DNA of 64,000 bases, taken from positions 248,001-312,000 of the forward strand of contig NZ_JNIO01000002.1 of NCBI RefSeq assembly GCF_000702545.1, in the 5' to 3' direction. A program made the translations under genes and the position numbers. Of this stretch, positions 21,117 through 28,708 are shown piece by piece. The notes under the pieces were generated by a model that did no database searches, had not been told where the DNA came from, and saw only the letters and a program-made list of their open reading frames with translations. Numbering within the stretch: the first letter of the stretch is position 1; each line of letters opens with the position of its first letter. This DNA is from Selenomonas sp. AB3002 (lineage in GTDB: Bacteria; Bacillota; Negativicutes; Selenomonadales; Selenomonadaceae).

Positions 21117-21253
21117 TATTTCACCTGCGCTTCCCAGTATCTACAATGTTTCTTTGCCATCATCATAACTAAAAGCAAGAAAACTTTCAAGCTCTGGAGG
21201 GTTTTTCCCCTCTTAGCACGAATATCTCAAGTAAACAACAAGGGGGAATGTCC

Positions 21254-21781
21254 ATGAAAAGAAAAAGAATCCTGGTACCGGTGGACGGCTCGGAGGGTTC
21301 GGCCCAGGCCATCAGCCTGGCAGGAGATTTGGCACTTTCCACCGGCTGCACCTTGGACATACTCCATGTTTCCTACTTCGACAGTAAGACAGACAGTCAG
21401 GCAGACAGCTGGTTGCCTGAGGAAGTGGCCGGTGCCGTAGGCGACCAGCAGCAGGAAGTGCTGGACAGGGCACGGAAGAGCCTGCCTGAGGGGTTGTCGG
21501 CTGATTTTCACCTGCGCACAGGGAATCCCGTAGAAGAAATCCTGCGCTTCGCCCACCAGCAGCAGGACTGGCTCATTGTGGTTGGAGGCAGAGGCCTGGG
21601 AGCCGTGGAAGGTTTCCTCATGGGCAGCATCAGCCAGCAGCTGCTGGAAGAATCCCCTGTATCGGTACTGATTGCCAGGAATCCAAAGGATGTGCCTCAT
21701 AGAGAAGAAGGCATGTTCTCAAGTTTTTCCCAATTGACGGATCTGGTGAAGAAAACCCTTCCCCCATTGAACCGAAAGTAA
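21254..21781 (+). CDS. Universal stress protein, UspA family (copy 1)
   Basis: The 175-residue cytoplasmic Usp has the N-terminal ILVPVDGSEGSAQA and the ATP-binding signature G-x2-G-x9-G-S/T seen in GRGLGAVEGFLMGS (~residues 115-128). A ~35-residue tail beyond the Usp core is unlike copy 2. The start at 21254 is chosen because AAGGGGG lies 7 nt before it, whereas the ATG at 21248 would touch that site. It lies 30 bp before a second Usp gene, so the two form an operon. Roles in stress survival are known for the family; the trigger here is unknown. Confidence 0.93.
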   Translation: MKRKRILVPVDGSEGSAQAISLAGDLALSTGCTLDILHVSYFDSKTDSQADSWLPEEVAGAVGDQQQEVLDRARKSLPEGLSADFHLRTGNPVEEILRFAHQQQDWLIVVGGRGLGAVEGFLMGSISQQLLEESPVSVLIARNPKDVPHREEGMFSSFSQLTDLVKKTLPPLNRK

Positions 21782-21811: not shown

Positions 21812-22231
21812 ATGGAAATCAAAAACATTCTGGTGCCCGTAGACGGCTCCGAAGGCTCTGACCGCGCCATCACCCATGCCATCTCCATGGCAGAGGTCTG
21901 CAATGCCAAATTGAACTTCCTATATGTGGCCAACATCAACCAGCTGGCCATCAACGCATGTCTCTCCGACGCCATCCTGGAAGCCGTCACCAAGGCCGGC
22001 AACGTCATCCTTGACCGGGCCATGGAAATGGTGCCCTCGGGCATCGCGAAGGAAGCCTTCTCAGAAACGGGCTCTCCTGCTGTGGTCATCCTGGACTTTG
22101 CCACCAGCAACAACGCCGACCTCATCGTCATGGGCAGCCGTGGCCTGGGTATCGTCAAAGGCGTGCTTCTGGGCAGTGTCAGCCAGTACATCGTAGAGCA
22201 GGCCAAGTGCCCCGTACTGGTAGTCAAATAG
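21812..22231 (+). CDS. Universal stress protein, UspA family (copy 2)
   Basis: The 139-residue Usp has NILVPVDGSEGSDRA at the N-terminus and GSRGLGIVKGVLLGS (~residues 108-122) as ATP-binding loop, ending VEQAKCPVLVVK as is typical. Its length equals the family core, unlike the longer copy 1. AGGAGG precedes the start. The pair looks like a tandem duplication that has diverged well. A terminator follows. Confidence 0.95.
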   Translation: MEIKNILVPVDGSEGSDRAITHAISMAEVCNAKLNFLYVANINQLAINACLSDAILEAVTKAGNVILDRAMEMVPSGIAKEAFSETGSPAVVILDFATSNNADLIVMGSRGLGIVKGVLLGSVSQYIVEQAKCPVLVVK

Positions 22232-22260
22232 CTCCCCCATAATACCATTTTCCATAGAGA

Positions 22261-22284
22261 AAGCCCGGCCGAAAAGCCGGGCTT
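22261..22284. terminator. Terminator after usp genes
   Basis: AAGCCCGGC-CGAAAA-GCCGGGCTT hairpin followed by T-rich sequence on the plus strand. It lies between convergent genes and may serve both. Confidence 0.85.
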
Positions 22285-22310
22285 TCTTGTTGCCTGTGGA
22301 ATTACAGCTT

Positions 22311-22874
22311 TCAAAACTTCAGATACTCTCTCAGCTTAGGGAAGTCGATGAAGCTCTTTTCTTCCGGGTGCTTCTCAAAGTAGTGCTGATGCTCCTCCTC
22401 TGCCCTTTGGAAATTTCTCAAGGGCAGGGCCAGAGCATGGCATTGACGGGCCAGCTTTGGATTGCTGTTGGGGTCATTGAGGGTCAGCCCCCCTTCACTC
22501 ACCGCCGAAGGCTTGCCCCGGCTGGCAATGAAATTCAGATGCAGCTGCACCTGTGGCTCGTCCTCACCGGAGGCGTAGAACACACCTGCCCGGTACTGCT
22601 CCCCCCTGGCTTCCCCCTGTCCGTCAGGCACATAGGGATTCACCACAGCAAAAAGCACATCCATCAGCTGGGACAGGTCCGTTTTCTTGGGGTTGAAAGC
22701 TACTTCCACCCCCATATAGGCACGGGCAGTGCCAGAGGAAACGGACTCAAAGTCCGTCTCCCCTTCACCGTTGATATAGCCTGTGCAGGTATCTGTCACG
22801 CCAGGCAGGCTCCTGAATACCTCCTGCAGCTCGTGGAAGTCTCCCCCGGAAAAATAGATTTTCTTGGTATACAT
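22311..22874 (-). CDS. MsrA-fold protein lacking the catalytic cysteine
   Basis: The 187-residue protein aligns by eye with peptide methionine sulfoxide reductase A but the active-site GCFW is replaced. YFSGGDFHELQEVF (residues ~7-20) stands where MsrA has Y-F-A-G-G-C-F-W-G: Cys becomes Asp (codon GAC) and Trp becomes His. The conserved H-A-E is also changed (YMGVEVAFNP). Fold-specific parts remain, such as TGYINGEGE, RGEQYRAGVFY and the C-terminal EEEHQHYFEKHP. Methionine sulfoxide reduction by the usual mechanism is therefore unlikely. It starts 1 bp after the meaB stop, so it is coupled to the methylmalonyl-CoA mutase operon. Its true role is unknown. Confidence 0.75.
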   Translation of the reverse strand: MYTKKIYFSGGDFHELQEVFRSLPGVTDTCTGYINGEGETDFESVSSGTARAYMGVEVAFNPKKTDLSQLMDVLFAVVNPYVPDGQGEARGEQYRAGVFYASGEDEPQVQLHLNFIASRGKPSAVSEGGLTLNDPNSNPKLARQCHALALPLRNFQRAEEEHQHYFEKHPEEKSFIDFPKLREYLKF

Positions 22875-22875
22875 C

Positions 22876-24066
22876 TCACTTCTCCTTTTCCGGGTGGAAG
22901 AGATCCACCTGCCGCATGGCGGCCCGCTTCACGTCAAAGAGGTTGATAAGCTCCGCCACTGCCTGGGTGGGCGACACCACGCCTTGCAGCACCGCCTCCC
23001 GGATTTCCGGCATGCGGCCTGTCACCACCGCATCCTCAAAGAATAGGTTGTGCAGGTGCTCGTCAATCATGCTGTGCATCCAGTCCAGCAGTTGCCCGTC
23101 ACGGCGCTTCTGCCAGACACCGCTTTCAGTGGTCATCTTCTGGAAGGCCCGGATGACCTCCCACAGCTCCTTCAGGCCCGTTTTTTCCAGCGCGGAGCAC
23201 AGGTAAGCATGGGTGGGCCAGCCCGGCGTAGCAGGGCGGATATACTCTATCATGCGCTCGTACTGTCCCCGGGACACCTGGGCCTTGGTCAGGTTGTCGC
23301 CATCAGCCTTGTTGATGACGATGGCATCTGCCAGTTCCATGATGCCCTTCTTGATGCCCTGCAGCTCATCACCCGCCCCTGTCAGCACCACCAGCAGGAA
23401 GAAATCCACCATGGAGCGCACGGTAGTTTCCGACTGGCCTACACCTACGGTTTCGATGATGATGACATCATAGCCCGCCGCCTCGCACATGAGCATGGTC
23501 TCCCGGCTCTTGCGGGCCACGCCCCCCAAAGTCCCCCCTGCGGGGGAAGGGCGGATAAAGGCCTCAGGCCGTCTGGACAGGGTCCCCATCCGGGTCTTGT
23601 CTCCCAGTATGGAGCCCTTGGTGACGGAACTGGTGGGGTCAACAGTGAGCACTGCCACCCTGTGGCCTGCATCGCAGAGCATATTGCCGAAGGCCTCTAT
23701 CATGGTGCTCTTGCCCGCCCCCGGCACGCCGGTGATGCCGATGCGCAGGGCCTTGCCTGTCCTGGGCAGCAGCCTCTGCAGCACCCGCTGAGCCTTGGCA
23801 AAGTGCCTGGGGCTGTTGCTCTCAATGAGGGTGATGGCCCGGGAAAGGGTCATGCGGTCACCCCGCGCAACCCCTTCCACATAGTCATCCTCAGACATTA
23901 TCATCTTCCGCTTGGGCTTCAGCTTCCCGCTGGCCAGAGCGGGATTGATATTGCCCACGGTAGTGTCCTTGATGCCGTCAATGCCGCTCATGACGGAACA
24001 GGCGAATTTGTCATTCTTTTCCTCAGGCACCCAGCTTGGCTTACTGGTAGTATATTTTTGCTCCAT
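22876..24066 (-). CDS. meaB: Methylmalonyl-CoA mutase-associated GTPase MeaB
   Basis: The 396-residue P-loop GTPase of the ArgK/MeaB family guards and reloads adenosylcobalamin in methylmalonyl-CoA mutase. Walker A is GVPGAGKST (~residues 114-122), followed by VDPTSSVTKGSILGDKTRM with the switch residues, ETVGVGQSE and the NKADGDN guanine-specificity motif. An N-terminal tail of ~60 residues precedes the family core. GGGGAGGAGG precedes the start. It lies 160 bp after mutB, with a three-hairpin repeat in the gap, and its stop is 1 bp from the MsrA-like start. Confidence 0.95.
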   Translation of the reverse strand: MEQKYTTSKPSWVPEEKNDKFACSVMSGIDGIKDTTVGNINPALASGKLKPKRKMIMSEDDYVEGVARGDRMTLSRAITLIESNSPRHFAKAQRVLQRLLPRTGKALRIGITGVPGAGKSTMIEAFGNMLCDAGHRVAVLTVDPTSSVTKGSILGDKTRMGTLSRRPEAFIRPSPAGGTLGGVARKSRETMLMCEAAGYDVIIIETVGVGQSETTVRSMVDFFLLVVLTGAGDELQGIKKGIMELADAIVINKADGDNLTKAQVSRGQYERMIEYIRPATPGWPTHAYLCSALEKTGLKELWEVIRAFQKMTTESGVWQKRRDGQLLDWMHSMIDEHLHNLFFEDAVVTGRMPEIREAVLQGVVSPTQAVAELINLFDVKRAAMRQVDLFHPEKEK

Positions 24067-24226: not shown

Positions 24227-26425
24227 TTACTCTTCAGCAAGTTCTTCCTTGACGCGATCCATCAACAGTGTCAGCAACTTGATCCCTGCCTCAGGAATAT
24301 TGGTGCCCGGGGCGAAGATAGCCACGGCCCCATGCTCATAGAGGTTGTCATAATCCTGCACGGGAATGACGCCGCCGATGGCCACCATGATATCCTCGCG
24401 GCCCAGCTTCTTGAGCTCCTCAACCAGCTGCGGCAGCAGGGTATTGTGGCCTGCTGCCAGGGAACTAAACCCTACCATGTGCACATCGTTGTCCACTGCA
24501 TCCTGGGCGGTCTCGGCAGGAGTCTGGAACAGCGGTCCCACATCTACATCCCAGCCCATGTCCGCGAAGGAAGAAGCGATGACCTTCTGGCCGCGGTCGT
24601 GGCCGTCCTGGCCCATCTTGGCCACGAAGATGCGGGGACGGCGGCCCGTGAGGCGCTCGAACTCGTCAGCCATGCTGCGGGCTTTGTCCAGCTCCGTCTT
24701 ATCAGTGAACTCGGAGGAATAGACCCCGGAAATGGTGTGGATCACAGCCTGATAGCGGCCCGATACCTTCTCCACCGCATCGGAAATCTCGCCCAAAGAG
24801 GCCCGCACACGTGCTGCCTCCACCGCGCATTCCAGGAGGTTGCCGTTGTCGCGGGAATCTGCTGCCTTGGTGATAGCTTCCAAGGCCCGGCGCACATCAT
24901 CATCATTGCGCTCACGACGCAATTTTTCCAGACGTTCCACCTGGGCATTGCGCACAGCGGTATTGTCGATGGCCAAAATTTCCAGCGGATCTTCCTTTTC
25001 CAGACGGTACTTGTTCAGGCCCACGATGGTCTCGTTGCCGGAGTCGATCTGGGCCTGACGGCGGGCAGCCGCCTCCTCGATGCGCATCTTGGGCAGGCCC
25101 GTGGAAATAGCCTTGGCCATGCCGCCCAAAGCCTCCACTTCCTGGATATGAGCCCAGGCCCGGCGAATGATCTCGTTGGTGAGAGCTTCCACATAGTAGG
25201 AACCGCCCCAGGGATCGATAATCTTGCAGACGCTGGTCTCATCCTGGATATAGAGCTGGGTGTTGCGGGCAATGCGGGCAGAGAAGTCCGTGGGCAGGGC
25301 GATGGCCTCATCCAGCGCATTGGTATGCAGGGACTGGGTATGGCCCAAAGCCGCCCCCATGGCCTCCATGGCGGTGCGGGAAATATTGTTGAAGGGATCC
25401 TGGGCCGTAAGCGACCAGCCGGAAGTCTGGCTGTGGGTACGGAGGGCCATGGACTTGGGATCCTCTGCCCCAAAGGACTTGACGATCTTGGCCCAGAGGA
25501 CACGGGCTGCCCGCATTTTGGCCACTTCCATGAAGTAGTTCTTGCCGATGGCCCAGAAGAAGGACAGGCGCTTGGCAAAGGCATCCACCGGCAGGCCAGC
25601 CTTGATGCCCGTGCGAATATACTCAAGGCCATCTGCCAGGGTATAGCCCAGCTCAATGTCTGCCGGTGCCCCTGCCTCCTGCATGTGGTAGCCGGAAATG
25701 GAAATGCTGTTGAACTTGGGCATGTATTTGGTGGTGTACTCGAAGATATCGCCGATGATGCGCATGGACATCTCAGGCGGATAAATATAGGTATTGCGCA
25801 CCATGAACTCTTTGAGGATATCGTTCTGGATGGTGCCTGCCATGATCTTCTTGTCCACGCCCTGCTCCACGCCGGACTGGATAAAGAAGGCCAAAATGGG
25901 CAGCACCGCCCCGTTCATGGTCATGGACACAGACATCTGGTCCAGGGGAATGCCGGAGAACAGGATATTCATATCAAGCATAGAGCAGACCGACACGCCA
26001 GCCTTGCCCACATCGCCCACTACTCTGGGGTTATCCGCATCGTAGCCGCGGTGGGTGGGCAGGTCAAAGGCGATGGAAAGCCCCTTCTGGCCTGCAGCCA
26101 GATTCCTGCGATAGAAGGCATTTGACTCCTCTGCTGTGGAGAAGCCTGCGTACTGGCGCACCGTCCAGGGACGGAAGACGTACATGGTGGAGTAAGGCCC
26201 CCGCAGGCAGGGAGGAATACCGCTGGCAAAGTCCAGATGGTTCATGTGGTCATATTCGTCATGGCCATAAAGGGGCTTCACGGGCACATGCTCCATGGTA
26301 CGGCGGGTGAGAGCCTCAAACTCCGCCCCGGCCTGGGCCTCGAAAAGCTTCTTCCAGTCCCCTGCCGCCCCCTGGGGAGCATCTTTCAGGCTTATCTGGG
26401 TGAAATCAGGATTTGTGTAAGCCAT
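24227..26425 (-). CDS. mutB: Methylmalonyl-CoA mutase large (catalytic) subunit
   Basis: The 732-residue adenosylcobalamin enzyme interconverts succinyl-CoA and (R)-methylmalonyl-CoA, the key step of succinate-propionate fermentation. The N-terminal TIM-barrel part has [23 protein letters not shown] (given as [12 protein letters not shown] and [11 protein letters not shown]), contacting CoA. The cobalamin domain has QDGHDRG (~residue 607), the D-x-H-x-x-G ligand motif, then GFSSLAAGH and [10 protein letters not shown]. Length fits the ~720-735 norm. It overlaps mutA by one base (TAATG). The next genes are meaB and an MsrA-like gene. Upstream control is by a cobalamin riboswitch. Confidence 0.98.
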
Positions 26426-28617
26426 TATGCAATCATCCCTTTCTTCTTCTGCAGGAGCTGCAGGATCTGATAGCAGTTGGCACGGACGTGGATATACTCA
26501 TCAATGCCCGCCTGGTTGTAGGTTTCCAGCATATCCTGGGGAGCAGCCCCGGCCAGGAATACTGTGGCTTTGGGCAGTACCTCATGGAGCTTCGGCGCCA
26601 GGGCCGGCACAATCTCGGGATAAGTGGCATCAGTAGAGCAGATGACCACGGCATCTGCCCCGGACTCCTTGGCAGCCAGGGCTGCTTCCTCCACAGTCTG
26701 GAAGCCATTGTTGCCAAGCACCTCAAAGGCACCCACCTGCAGGAAGCCCGTGGTGAAATCAGCCCTGGCCTTGTGCTGGGGGATGGGGCCCATATTGGCC
26801 AGGAAAATCTTCACATTATCATCATGCTCAGCCTTGAACCCCTCTGTAAGCTTCCTCAAGGCCTCAAAGCGCTCGCTCCAGCGGTGGGGCTCGATGGCTT
26901 TCACCTGTTCCTCACCCTTGTTCCCCCCATGGAGGGCTTCTGCCAGTTCCTCAATGGTGGCGCCAGCGCAGGCAGCAGCTACGGCAGCTTCCGTCACTCC
27001 AGCCTTGGCAGAGGAAAGTTCAGCCAGCTTTTCTTCTTTGAACTGCTCGTCAATATCGGCCAGATAGCTTTCCACCTCAGCCTTGCGCTGCTGCTTGATT
27101 TCCTCCACATCTTCGGGACGCGGATCAAGCAAAGTCTCCGTCATGTTGGGATACATATTGTTGCCTACGATACGGTCCTTGCGGGTCTCGGCTGCCTTGA
27201 AACGGGCGCTCAGGACGCTGGCAATCTCATCCTGGGGATAGCCCTCCTGCAGAGCCTTCAGGATACCGCCCTTGGCCTCTATCTTCTGGAACTCCTCCCA
27301 GATTTTTTCTTTCATCTGCTTGGTAAGAGTCTCCACCGCCCAGGAACCGCCAGCTGGGTCAATGGGCTGCAAGAGGCCGAATTCCTCCTGCAGGATGATC
27401 TGCACATTGCGGGCAATGCGGCGGGAGAACTCATCCCCCTTGCGGATGGGCTCGTCAAAGGGACTGCTCTCGAAGGAATCAATGCCCCCCACTACCCCTG
27501 AGAAAATTTCCGTGGTATTGCGGAGCATATTGACGTAAGGGTCATAGACGGTCTTGAAGAACAGGGCGGGCTTGGCATGGATGTGCATGCGCCTTGCCTC
27601 CTGGCTGCCGCCGAAGGCTTCAACAATCTGCGCCCAGAGGGGACGCAGGGCCCTGAGCTTGGCAATCTGCAGGAAGAAATTGGCCCCCATGGAGAAGCCG
27701 AAGACAATCTGCTTCGCCGCCTCGTCGATAGTCAGCCCTCTGTCCATCAGCGCCCGCAGATAAGCCACCGCCATGGCAAGGGCATAGGCAGCCTCCTGCA
27801 CATCATTGGCACCGCCCCGGCTGAATACATCACTGCGGACAAAGACCGTGGCCAGGCCCGGAGCGTTTTCCTTAGCCCACTTGGCGGCTTCCGCCATCTC
27901 ATCATAGAGCTTGTCCAAAGAAGCAGGCAGTTCCCCTTCTTCAACCAAAGCCCCCAGGGGATTTGCTCCCACAAATCCCTTGAGCTGCTTCAGGTCCGTG
28001 CCGGAGGACTTCAAGGCCCCCACTGCCAGAGCCAGCATGGGCAGAGCCGTGGCCCCGGCGTAGATATAGAGGGGGTACTTGTCCAGCTTCAGCCCCTCCA
28101 GCAGGGTATGCACATCATCAAGGGTGGTCAGGGACACGCCCTCATCACCGGGGGTCTCCGCCTTTCTCACATCCCTGGCAGCCAGGGTGGCCTTGTCCAG
28201 GCGGATATTGTAGACCGTGGAACCCTTCTCCTGCTCATGGCGCAGCAGCTCATTGTTTTCCTTGGGGCTGGTCTCATCGCAGGACTGGGCAATGCCCCAG
28301 GGCCTCCCAACATAGCCGCTGGGCTGTGCCCCCCTGAGGTAATCCCCCATGCCGGGGAACTCCCCCTTGGGCAGGATATCCTCCGTATCCTTGCGGAAGT
28401 ACATGGGGTCGAAGGTAATGCCCTCATAGGTCTTGGTATACATTTTCTTCTCAAAGGGTGCCCCCTTCAAGAGAGTGATGCAGGCCTCCTTCCACTCCTC
28501 ATAGGTGGGAGGAGTGAATTCATCCAGTGGCACATCGGGAAAGTCCGTCTGCTGCTCGGCCTTTTTCAGGATAGCCTGAAGGTCGAGCTCGCCGCTTTTT
28601 TCCAGCTCGTTGCTCAT
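26425..28617 (-). CDS. mutA: Methylmalonyl-CoA mutase small subunit
   Basis: The 730-residue partner of MutB keeps the barrel-plus-flavodoxin-like architecture but lacks the D-x-H-x-x-G cobalamin ligand: the matching segment reads [17 protein letters not shown]. It is therefore the non-catalytic subunit of a heterodimeric mutase. The start at 28617 ([13 protein letters not shown]) has AAGGAGG 7 nt upstream; a longer reading would extend 31 codons into the riboswitch leader and is rejected. It is first in mutA-mutB-meaB-msrA-like and lies ~180 bp downstream of the cobalamin aptamer. Confidence 0.96.
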
Positions 28618-28708
28618 ACTGCAGCCTCCTTGTGTGATTTGTGAAACCCAACAGAAAAGGCAACCCACCTGCAAGCGCGCAGACGGATTGCCTAAAAATG
28701 GCCACAGC

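Follow-up and report, generated by a model that had tools for sequence, protein, structure and literature searches.

A Negativicutes family of predicted MsrA pseudoenzymes linked to a cobalamin riboswitch-controlled methylmalonyl-CoA mutase operon

In the 64,000-nucleotide stretch of Selenomonas sp. AB3002 DNA analysed here (the window), the riboswitch-run mutA-mutB-meaB operon carries a gene (hereafter Q; 22311-22874, minus strand, ATG start) for a 187-aa protein with the fold of methionine sulfoxide reductase A (MsrA) but without its catalytic cysteine. We consider this putative MsrA pseudoenzyme most likely to be a non-catalytic partner of MutA/MutB and/or MeaB, with a probability of roughly 0.55. 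The gene was characterized via its open reading frame, Pfam, an NCBI family model, Foldseek and alignment. PF01625 (PMSR) matched residues 5-172 with an E-value of 8.2e-28 and 98 bits (cut-off 23.7), thus the resemblance to MsrA is not due to chance; on the NCBI MsrA equivalog model TIGR00401, Q scored 92.7, below the cut-off of 108.1. An AlphaFold2 model based on 37 relatives reached a mean pLDDT of 87.1 and a pTM of 0.82, and with this model Foldseek returned MsrA crystal structures as best matches (3bqg, the MsrA of N. meningitidis PilB: E 8.1e-16, TM 0.78, 30% identity), bearing out the MsrA likeness and retained fold proposed in a preliminary description of this DNA. No nucleotide-binding family matched Q in the Pfam and NCBI family scans.

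The active site of Q was found as that description had read it: the G-G-C-F-W-G motif of MsrA has become G-G-D-F-H-E (within Y-F-S-G-G-D-F-H-E), and H-A-E has become A-Y-M. The Asp codon is GAC and not an in-frame TGA, which leaves neither Cys nor selenocysteine at the catalytic place, again as claimed. In MsrA numbering (that of the E. coli and Neisseria enzymes, counted along the E. coli sequence), C51, F52, W53, E94, D129 and Y134 correspond to D12, F13, H14, M54, A89 and Y94 of Q. The catalytic Cys51, the general acid Glu94 and Asp129 of the QGNDxGxQYR loop, which we take to be catalytic too, are all missing, the equivalents of Phe52 and Tyr134 are retained (Phe13 and Tyr94), and Phe42 occupies the Tyr82 position. 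The roles of Cys51, Glu94, Tyr82 and Tyr134 in MsrA are as given in excerpts of PMC6210582. A hidden nucleophilic cysteine elsewhere, which would have contradicted the earlier reading, was ruled out: no Cys column is conserved, the best being C145 in 61 of the 91 loci from Selenomonadaceae. Since the nucleophile is missing, Q, judged from its residues, cannot reduce methionine sulfoxide through the known MsrA mechanism.

By its relatives, Q is a member of a real Negativicutes family of predicted MsrA pseudoenzymes and not a single odd gene, and bacteria from gut, rumen and breweries carry this Cys-less, MsrA-fold family. When 151 genomes of Selenomonadaceae (f1, the family of Q) were searched at the protein level, 124 gave a match, though a weak one in G024 and G048, and loci from most of the matching genomes provided 89 distinct proteins for alignment. 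The named relatives (77 loci with one motif pattern) were from Selenomonas, Mitsuokella, Schwartzia, Anaerovibrio, Pectinatus, Megamonas and unclassified Selenomonadaceae/Veillonellaceae. Three further Negativicutes families (f35, f15 and f28) were added by a profile search across 350 genomes from the class, while a search of 299 genomes of the phylum (E <= 1e-28) gave eight matches, five of them from Selenomonadaceae and three being frames of 334-344 aa that matched residues 4-127 alone and were taken for ordinary MsrA. Some of the orthologues scored below the PF01625 cut-off (L184, L089 and L090 with 20.2, 18.6 and 15.4 bits respectively) or had no match (L199). The Q-type MsrA subfamily is marked by an extra segment of about 25 residues, E-D-x-P...N-F...R-G...N-D, at about residues 104-134.

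At the Cys51 position, Cys was present in 22/22 canonical MsrA and in 4/4 sequences of f28, but in none of the 102 sequences of the Cys-less group with a residue there (91 from f1, five of six from f35 and six from f15): the residues were D (54), S (21), N (15) and A (1) in f1 (n=91), P (4), S (1) and a gap (1) in f35 (n=6), and S (2), E (2), Y (1) and K (1) in f15 (n=6). This variety suggests no special role for the Asp. Glu at the Glu94 position was found in 2/91 of f1, 5/6 of f35 and 0/6 of f15, Asp at the Asp129 position in none of the three families, and Trp53 was lost in all Q sequences. It is very unlikely that Q is still a sulfoxide reductase employing another nucleophile. In favour of such an enzyme, the f35 proteins mostly keep Glu94 and the two that were scanned (L170 and L173) pass the TIGR00401 cut-off despite having no Cys (124.8 and 109.5 vs 108.1; f15 proteins gave 68.8, 75.1 and, for two, no match); however, besides the absence of any conserved Cys column, the residue at the catalytic position varies among Ser, Asp, Asn, Ala and Pro, and the loss of Asp129 extends to all Q groups.

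Conservation has instead settled on other residues. K63, D66, S68, D72, E104, D105 and F115 are invariant in f1 (91/91), none of them being an old catalytic residue, and D66, E104 and D105 are also invariant in f35 and f15 (12/12). The first six could in principle support a new enzymatic activity, which we regard as improbable: in the model, D66 and E104/D105 are placed where helices 67-77 and 103-118 begin, as would be expected of structural caps, conservation of S68 and D72 does not extend to f35 or f15, and no polar pair in the old pocket is common to all groups.

The nearest relatives of the Q group in the tree were the Cys-bearing MsrA of f28 (L169, L171, L175 and L177). The tree was computed with IQ-TREE from 70 sequences (LG+G4, 158 columns; 33/91 of f1 and 5/6 of f35 were used and the truncated L180 was omitted). 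Canonical MsrA was set apart from all other sequences (UFBoot 100), and f1, f35 and f15, all Cys-less, formed one group (UFBoot 100). The four f28 sequences branched between these two, basally and not as a clade. With canonical MsrA as the root, a single loss of the Cys is implied, while the finer branching order is uncertain owing to the long branches of f15. Two of the f28 proteins (L169 and L171) share K63, D66, E104-D105 and the extra segment with Q; unlike Q, the f28 proteins have the full active site (C, E, D and Y in 4/4) and high TIGR00401 scores (184, 179 and 187 bits for the three scanned).

Purifying selection on Q is clear: the median dN/dS was 0.124 and the maximum 0.61 (Nei-Gojobori; 100 non-independent pairs, dS 0.1-1.2). 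This bears on the idea that Q is a mere passenger, a decaying MsrA gene sitting in the operon by chance, for which one could cite the far advanced decay of the active site, the loss of the gene in some lineages and one copy that is cut short (L090). We hold this to be most improbable: i) frames are open and residues invariant across many genera; ii) a median dN/dS so far below 1 contradicts decay; iii) Q persists in the operon in two alternative positions; iv) Q was retained in genus g12 after leaving the operon. In g12 the QGxDxGxQYR active-site loop is deleted, and the model of such a loop-less protein (pLDDT 82.6) retains the fold, with MsrA structures as top matches (E 2.2e-9). Shortened copies of 144-152 aa were seen in this genus (L090, L084 and L086-L088), of which L090 ends before the C-terminal part, possibly an ongoing loss of Q.

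On the minus strand of the window, a promoter-like site, a cobalamin riboswitch, mutA, mutB, meaB and Q follow one another. The riboswitch (RF00174, 28789-29136, 79.7 bits) lies upstream of mutA, and a single base (22875) separates the meaB stop, at 22876, from the Q start, so that both the cobalamin-controlled operon and the 1-bp spacing of the preliminary description stand. All these genes are on the minus strand: meaB (22876-24066, from family scans) encodes a long form of 396 aa, which shares 43% identity over a 201-aa segment with the second, shorter MeaB of this genome; mutB (24227-26425; NF006944, 1238.9 bits) encodes the large subunit of methylmalonyl-CoA mutase; and mutA (26425-28617), the small subunit, had TIGR00642 as best match at 391.7 bits, below the cut-off of 617.25, and we infer its start to be an internal ATG (MSNELEK). 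Between riboswitch and mutA, a terminator-like stem with a T-rich tail (28658-28693, minus strand) is a possible expression platform, from a scan that gave 8 stems vs 6.3 expected in shuffles. The promoter-like site (29177-29149, minus strand) came from a scan with 5 sites vs 3.6 expected. The operon likely ends at a G+C-rich hairpin (22258-22287), which was found by eye and is absent from the stem-scan list. It lies between Q and two tandem universal-stress-like genes (21248-21781 and 21812-22231, plus strand), which were identified from their translations and are convergent to the mutase operon.

The mutase at Q is a second, riboswitch-controlled set and not the propionate operon of the genome. 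A separate, complete succinate-propionate operon (L228, region G000:C2:198740-200272) encodes succinate CoA-transferase, mutase N and C chains, the short MeaB, methylmalonyl-CoA epimerase and decarboxylase alpha and gamma; it holds no Q and no cobalamin riboswitch above the Rfam threshold, which assigns Q to the second set. One genome thus has two differently regulated mutase sets, one preceded by a riboswitch and the other, at the propionate operon, not. Cobalamin riboswitches usually repress.

Across Selenomonadaceae, Q directly follows meaB in 74/91 loci, 60 by frame count and 14 with negative offsets that were re-read by true gaps, the offsets being negative because stop-to-stop frames were used. 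In one further locus (L086) Q is 726 bases from meaB, and the stretch lacks meaB in 16/91, namely 15 loci from genus g12 and the chimeric contig of L021. In f35 the relative of Q follows meaB in 5/6 loci, the sixth being at a contig start, while in f15 it directly precedes mutA in 6/6 and, in the two checked (L199 and L200), sits between the cobalamin riboswitch and mutA. A cobalamin riboswitch was present upstream of mutA in the window and in 16/16 further Q-bearing operons fetched far enough. No mutase genes were on the stretch at the four f28 MsrA loci examined, and two genomes of f28 (G311 and G244) have a mutAB-meaB operon located elsewhere, without Q. That Q was kept with the mutase operon though the gene swapped operon ends is the strongest sign of a probable shared function. 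Hence, of the expectation that orthologues with the same Asp would adjoin meaB in Negativicutes, the linkage largely held but the Asp did not, being found in 54/91 only; and conservation of the linkage itself is broad but incomplete, given the 16 loci above and some operons lacking Q. Neither of the two objections foreseen in the preliminary description, a nucleophilic Cys elsewhere or an unconserved meaB linkage, thus materialised.

Such operons (mutAB-meaB or its meaB end, without Q on the stretch) were found in four g21 genomes, three f15-g78 loci and two f28 loci, thus Q is dispensable. Among the 159 genomes of f1 that could be placed, Q and long MeaB co-occurred in 123, Q alone was found in 6, long MeaB alone in 11 and neither in 19 (Fisher p 3e-12, relatedness ignored). 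Thresholds were E < 1e-28 for Q and E <= 1e-120 for long MeaB, so that G024, G048 and G355, with weaker matches, were counted as without Q. Some of the six genomes with Q alone are incompletely assembled or break off at a contig edge; among the 11 with long MeaB alone, the operon extends as far as meaB and the stretch lacks Q in four of genus g21 (G047, G093, G099 and G118), which we read as true losses. Residues tracking the presence of Q amounted to zero positions in MeaB and weak ones in MutA (two) and MutB (one), with no interface signature. No cobalamin riboswitch preceded the unlinked g12 copies in the 16 g12 stretches scanned, and a putative LytR-type gene (so named from its sequence) was 3' of 8/16 of them, an uninformative neighbour. 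Two irregular arrangements were set aside: in L021 (G065) mutB runs straight into Q inside both genes, which we read as a misassembly or chimeric contig, and a MeaB-Q fusion suggested by long frames in G012, G116 and G130 was rejected, these being due to a repeated contig edge (L070) or an unrelated upstream frame (L065 and L067).

Genomics thus lends good support to a probable functional link between Q and the mutase, and with the catalytic Cys lost, the MsrA fold retained and the operon linkage conserved, the earlier suggestion of a former redox enzyme turned binding protein appears to be the reading that fits best. Comparison of living relatives shows that, within Negativicutes, the MsrA subfamily with the extra segment has lost Cys51, Asp129 and, for the most part, Glu94, and has joined the cobalamin riboswitch-controlled mutA-mutB-meaB operon. 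There Q may bind the mutase and/or its GTPase chaperone MeaB and, under cobalamin shortage, may help to load or retain the cofactor or to assemble and stabilise the complex. The Q-bearing set would serve at low cobalamin, as suggested by the V. parvula mutA riboswitch, which was repressing in a reporter assay (excerpts of PMC9600662), and by the lack of a riboswitch at the propionate operon. Counting against the partner role are the lineages without Q, the g12 copies without meaB or cobalamin riboswitch on the stretch and the lack of convincing Q-tracking residues in the mutase and MeaB.

A different use of the old pocket is conceivable, as Tyr134 retention in f1 would allow some ligand binding. 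The equivalents of Tyr82, Tyr134 and Phe52 are kept in 49/91, 62/91 and 64/91 of f1 respectively (Tyr as such for the first two), and the last two would suit a sensor protein in control of the mutase, with methionine sulfoxide or some other small molecule as its ligand. We think this unlikely, however, since Trp53 is lost in all and about 20/91 of f1 and most of f15 have no pocket loop or none that can be aligned, whereas a ligand site under conservation should not disappear.

Returning to the partner role, a narrower and more tentative proposal is that an MsrA fold became a dedicated third accessory factor of the B12-dependent mutase, keeping cobalamin-limited MutAB-MeaB loaded or assembled. 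Its steps may survive in living relatives: f28 active and unlinked, f35 with Cys lost, Glu kept and linked, f1 and f15 with the active site gone and linked, and g12 lacking the loop and once more without linkage. MeaB/MMAA and the adenosyltransferase MMAB are accessory proteins of methylmalonyl-CoA mutase (excerpts of PMC10356863); they are likewise small proteins devoted to a B12-dependent mutase, and MeaB directly adjoins Q. The fold of Q is, however, unrelated to the MeaB GTPase, and its role is deduced from neighbourhood. The V. parvula riboswitch is a further case of a mutA of Negativicutes under this type of control, with no Q-like gene mentioned in the excerpts of that report (PMC9600662). 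Compared with MsrA (PF01625, TIGR00401), most of Q agrees in both fold and sequence, but Q differs in lacking catalytic Cys, Glu94 and Asp129, in the extra segment and in its place in a mutase operon. We found no description of a Cys-less MsrA, or of an MsrA beside a mutase, in the open-access literature searched.

Q and its relatives thus make up a large MsrA-derived family without catalytic residues, and its close Cys-bearing relatives, available for comparison, open the presumed change from redox enzyme to binding protein to stepwise study. The family hints at a component of B12-dependent propionate metabolism that may have gone unrecognised in bacteria of rumen and gut. Moreover, the Cys-less f35 proteins above the TIGR00401 cut-off make automatic MsrA annotation in Negativicutes unsafe. 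In the genome of the window, Q is the only PF01625 match, and family searches found no second MsrA and no MsrB (SelR). Within f28, L169 and L171 are themselves an unusual type of MsrA, being Cys-bearing with an EDEP...NF..RG...VNE segment.
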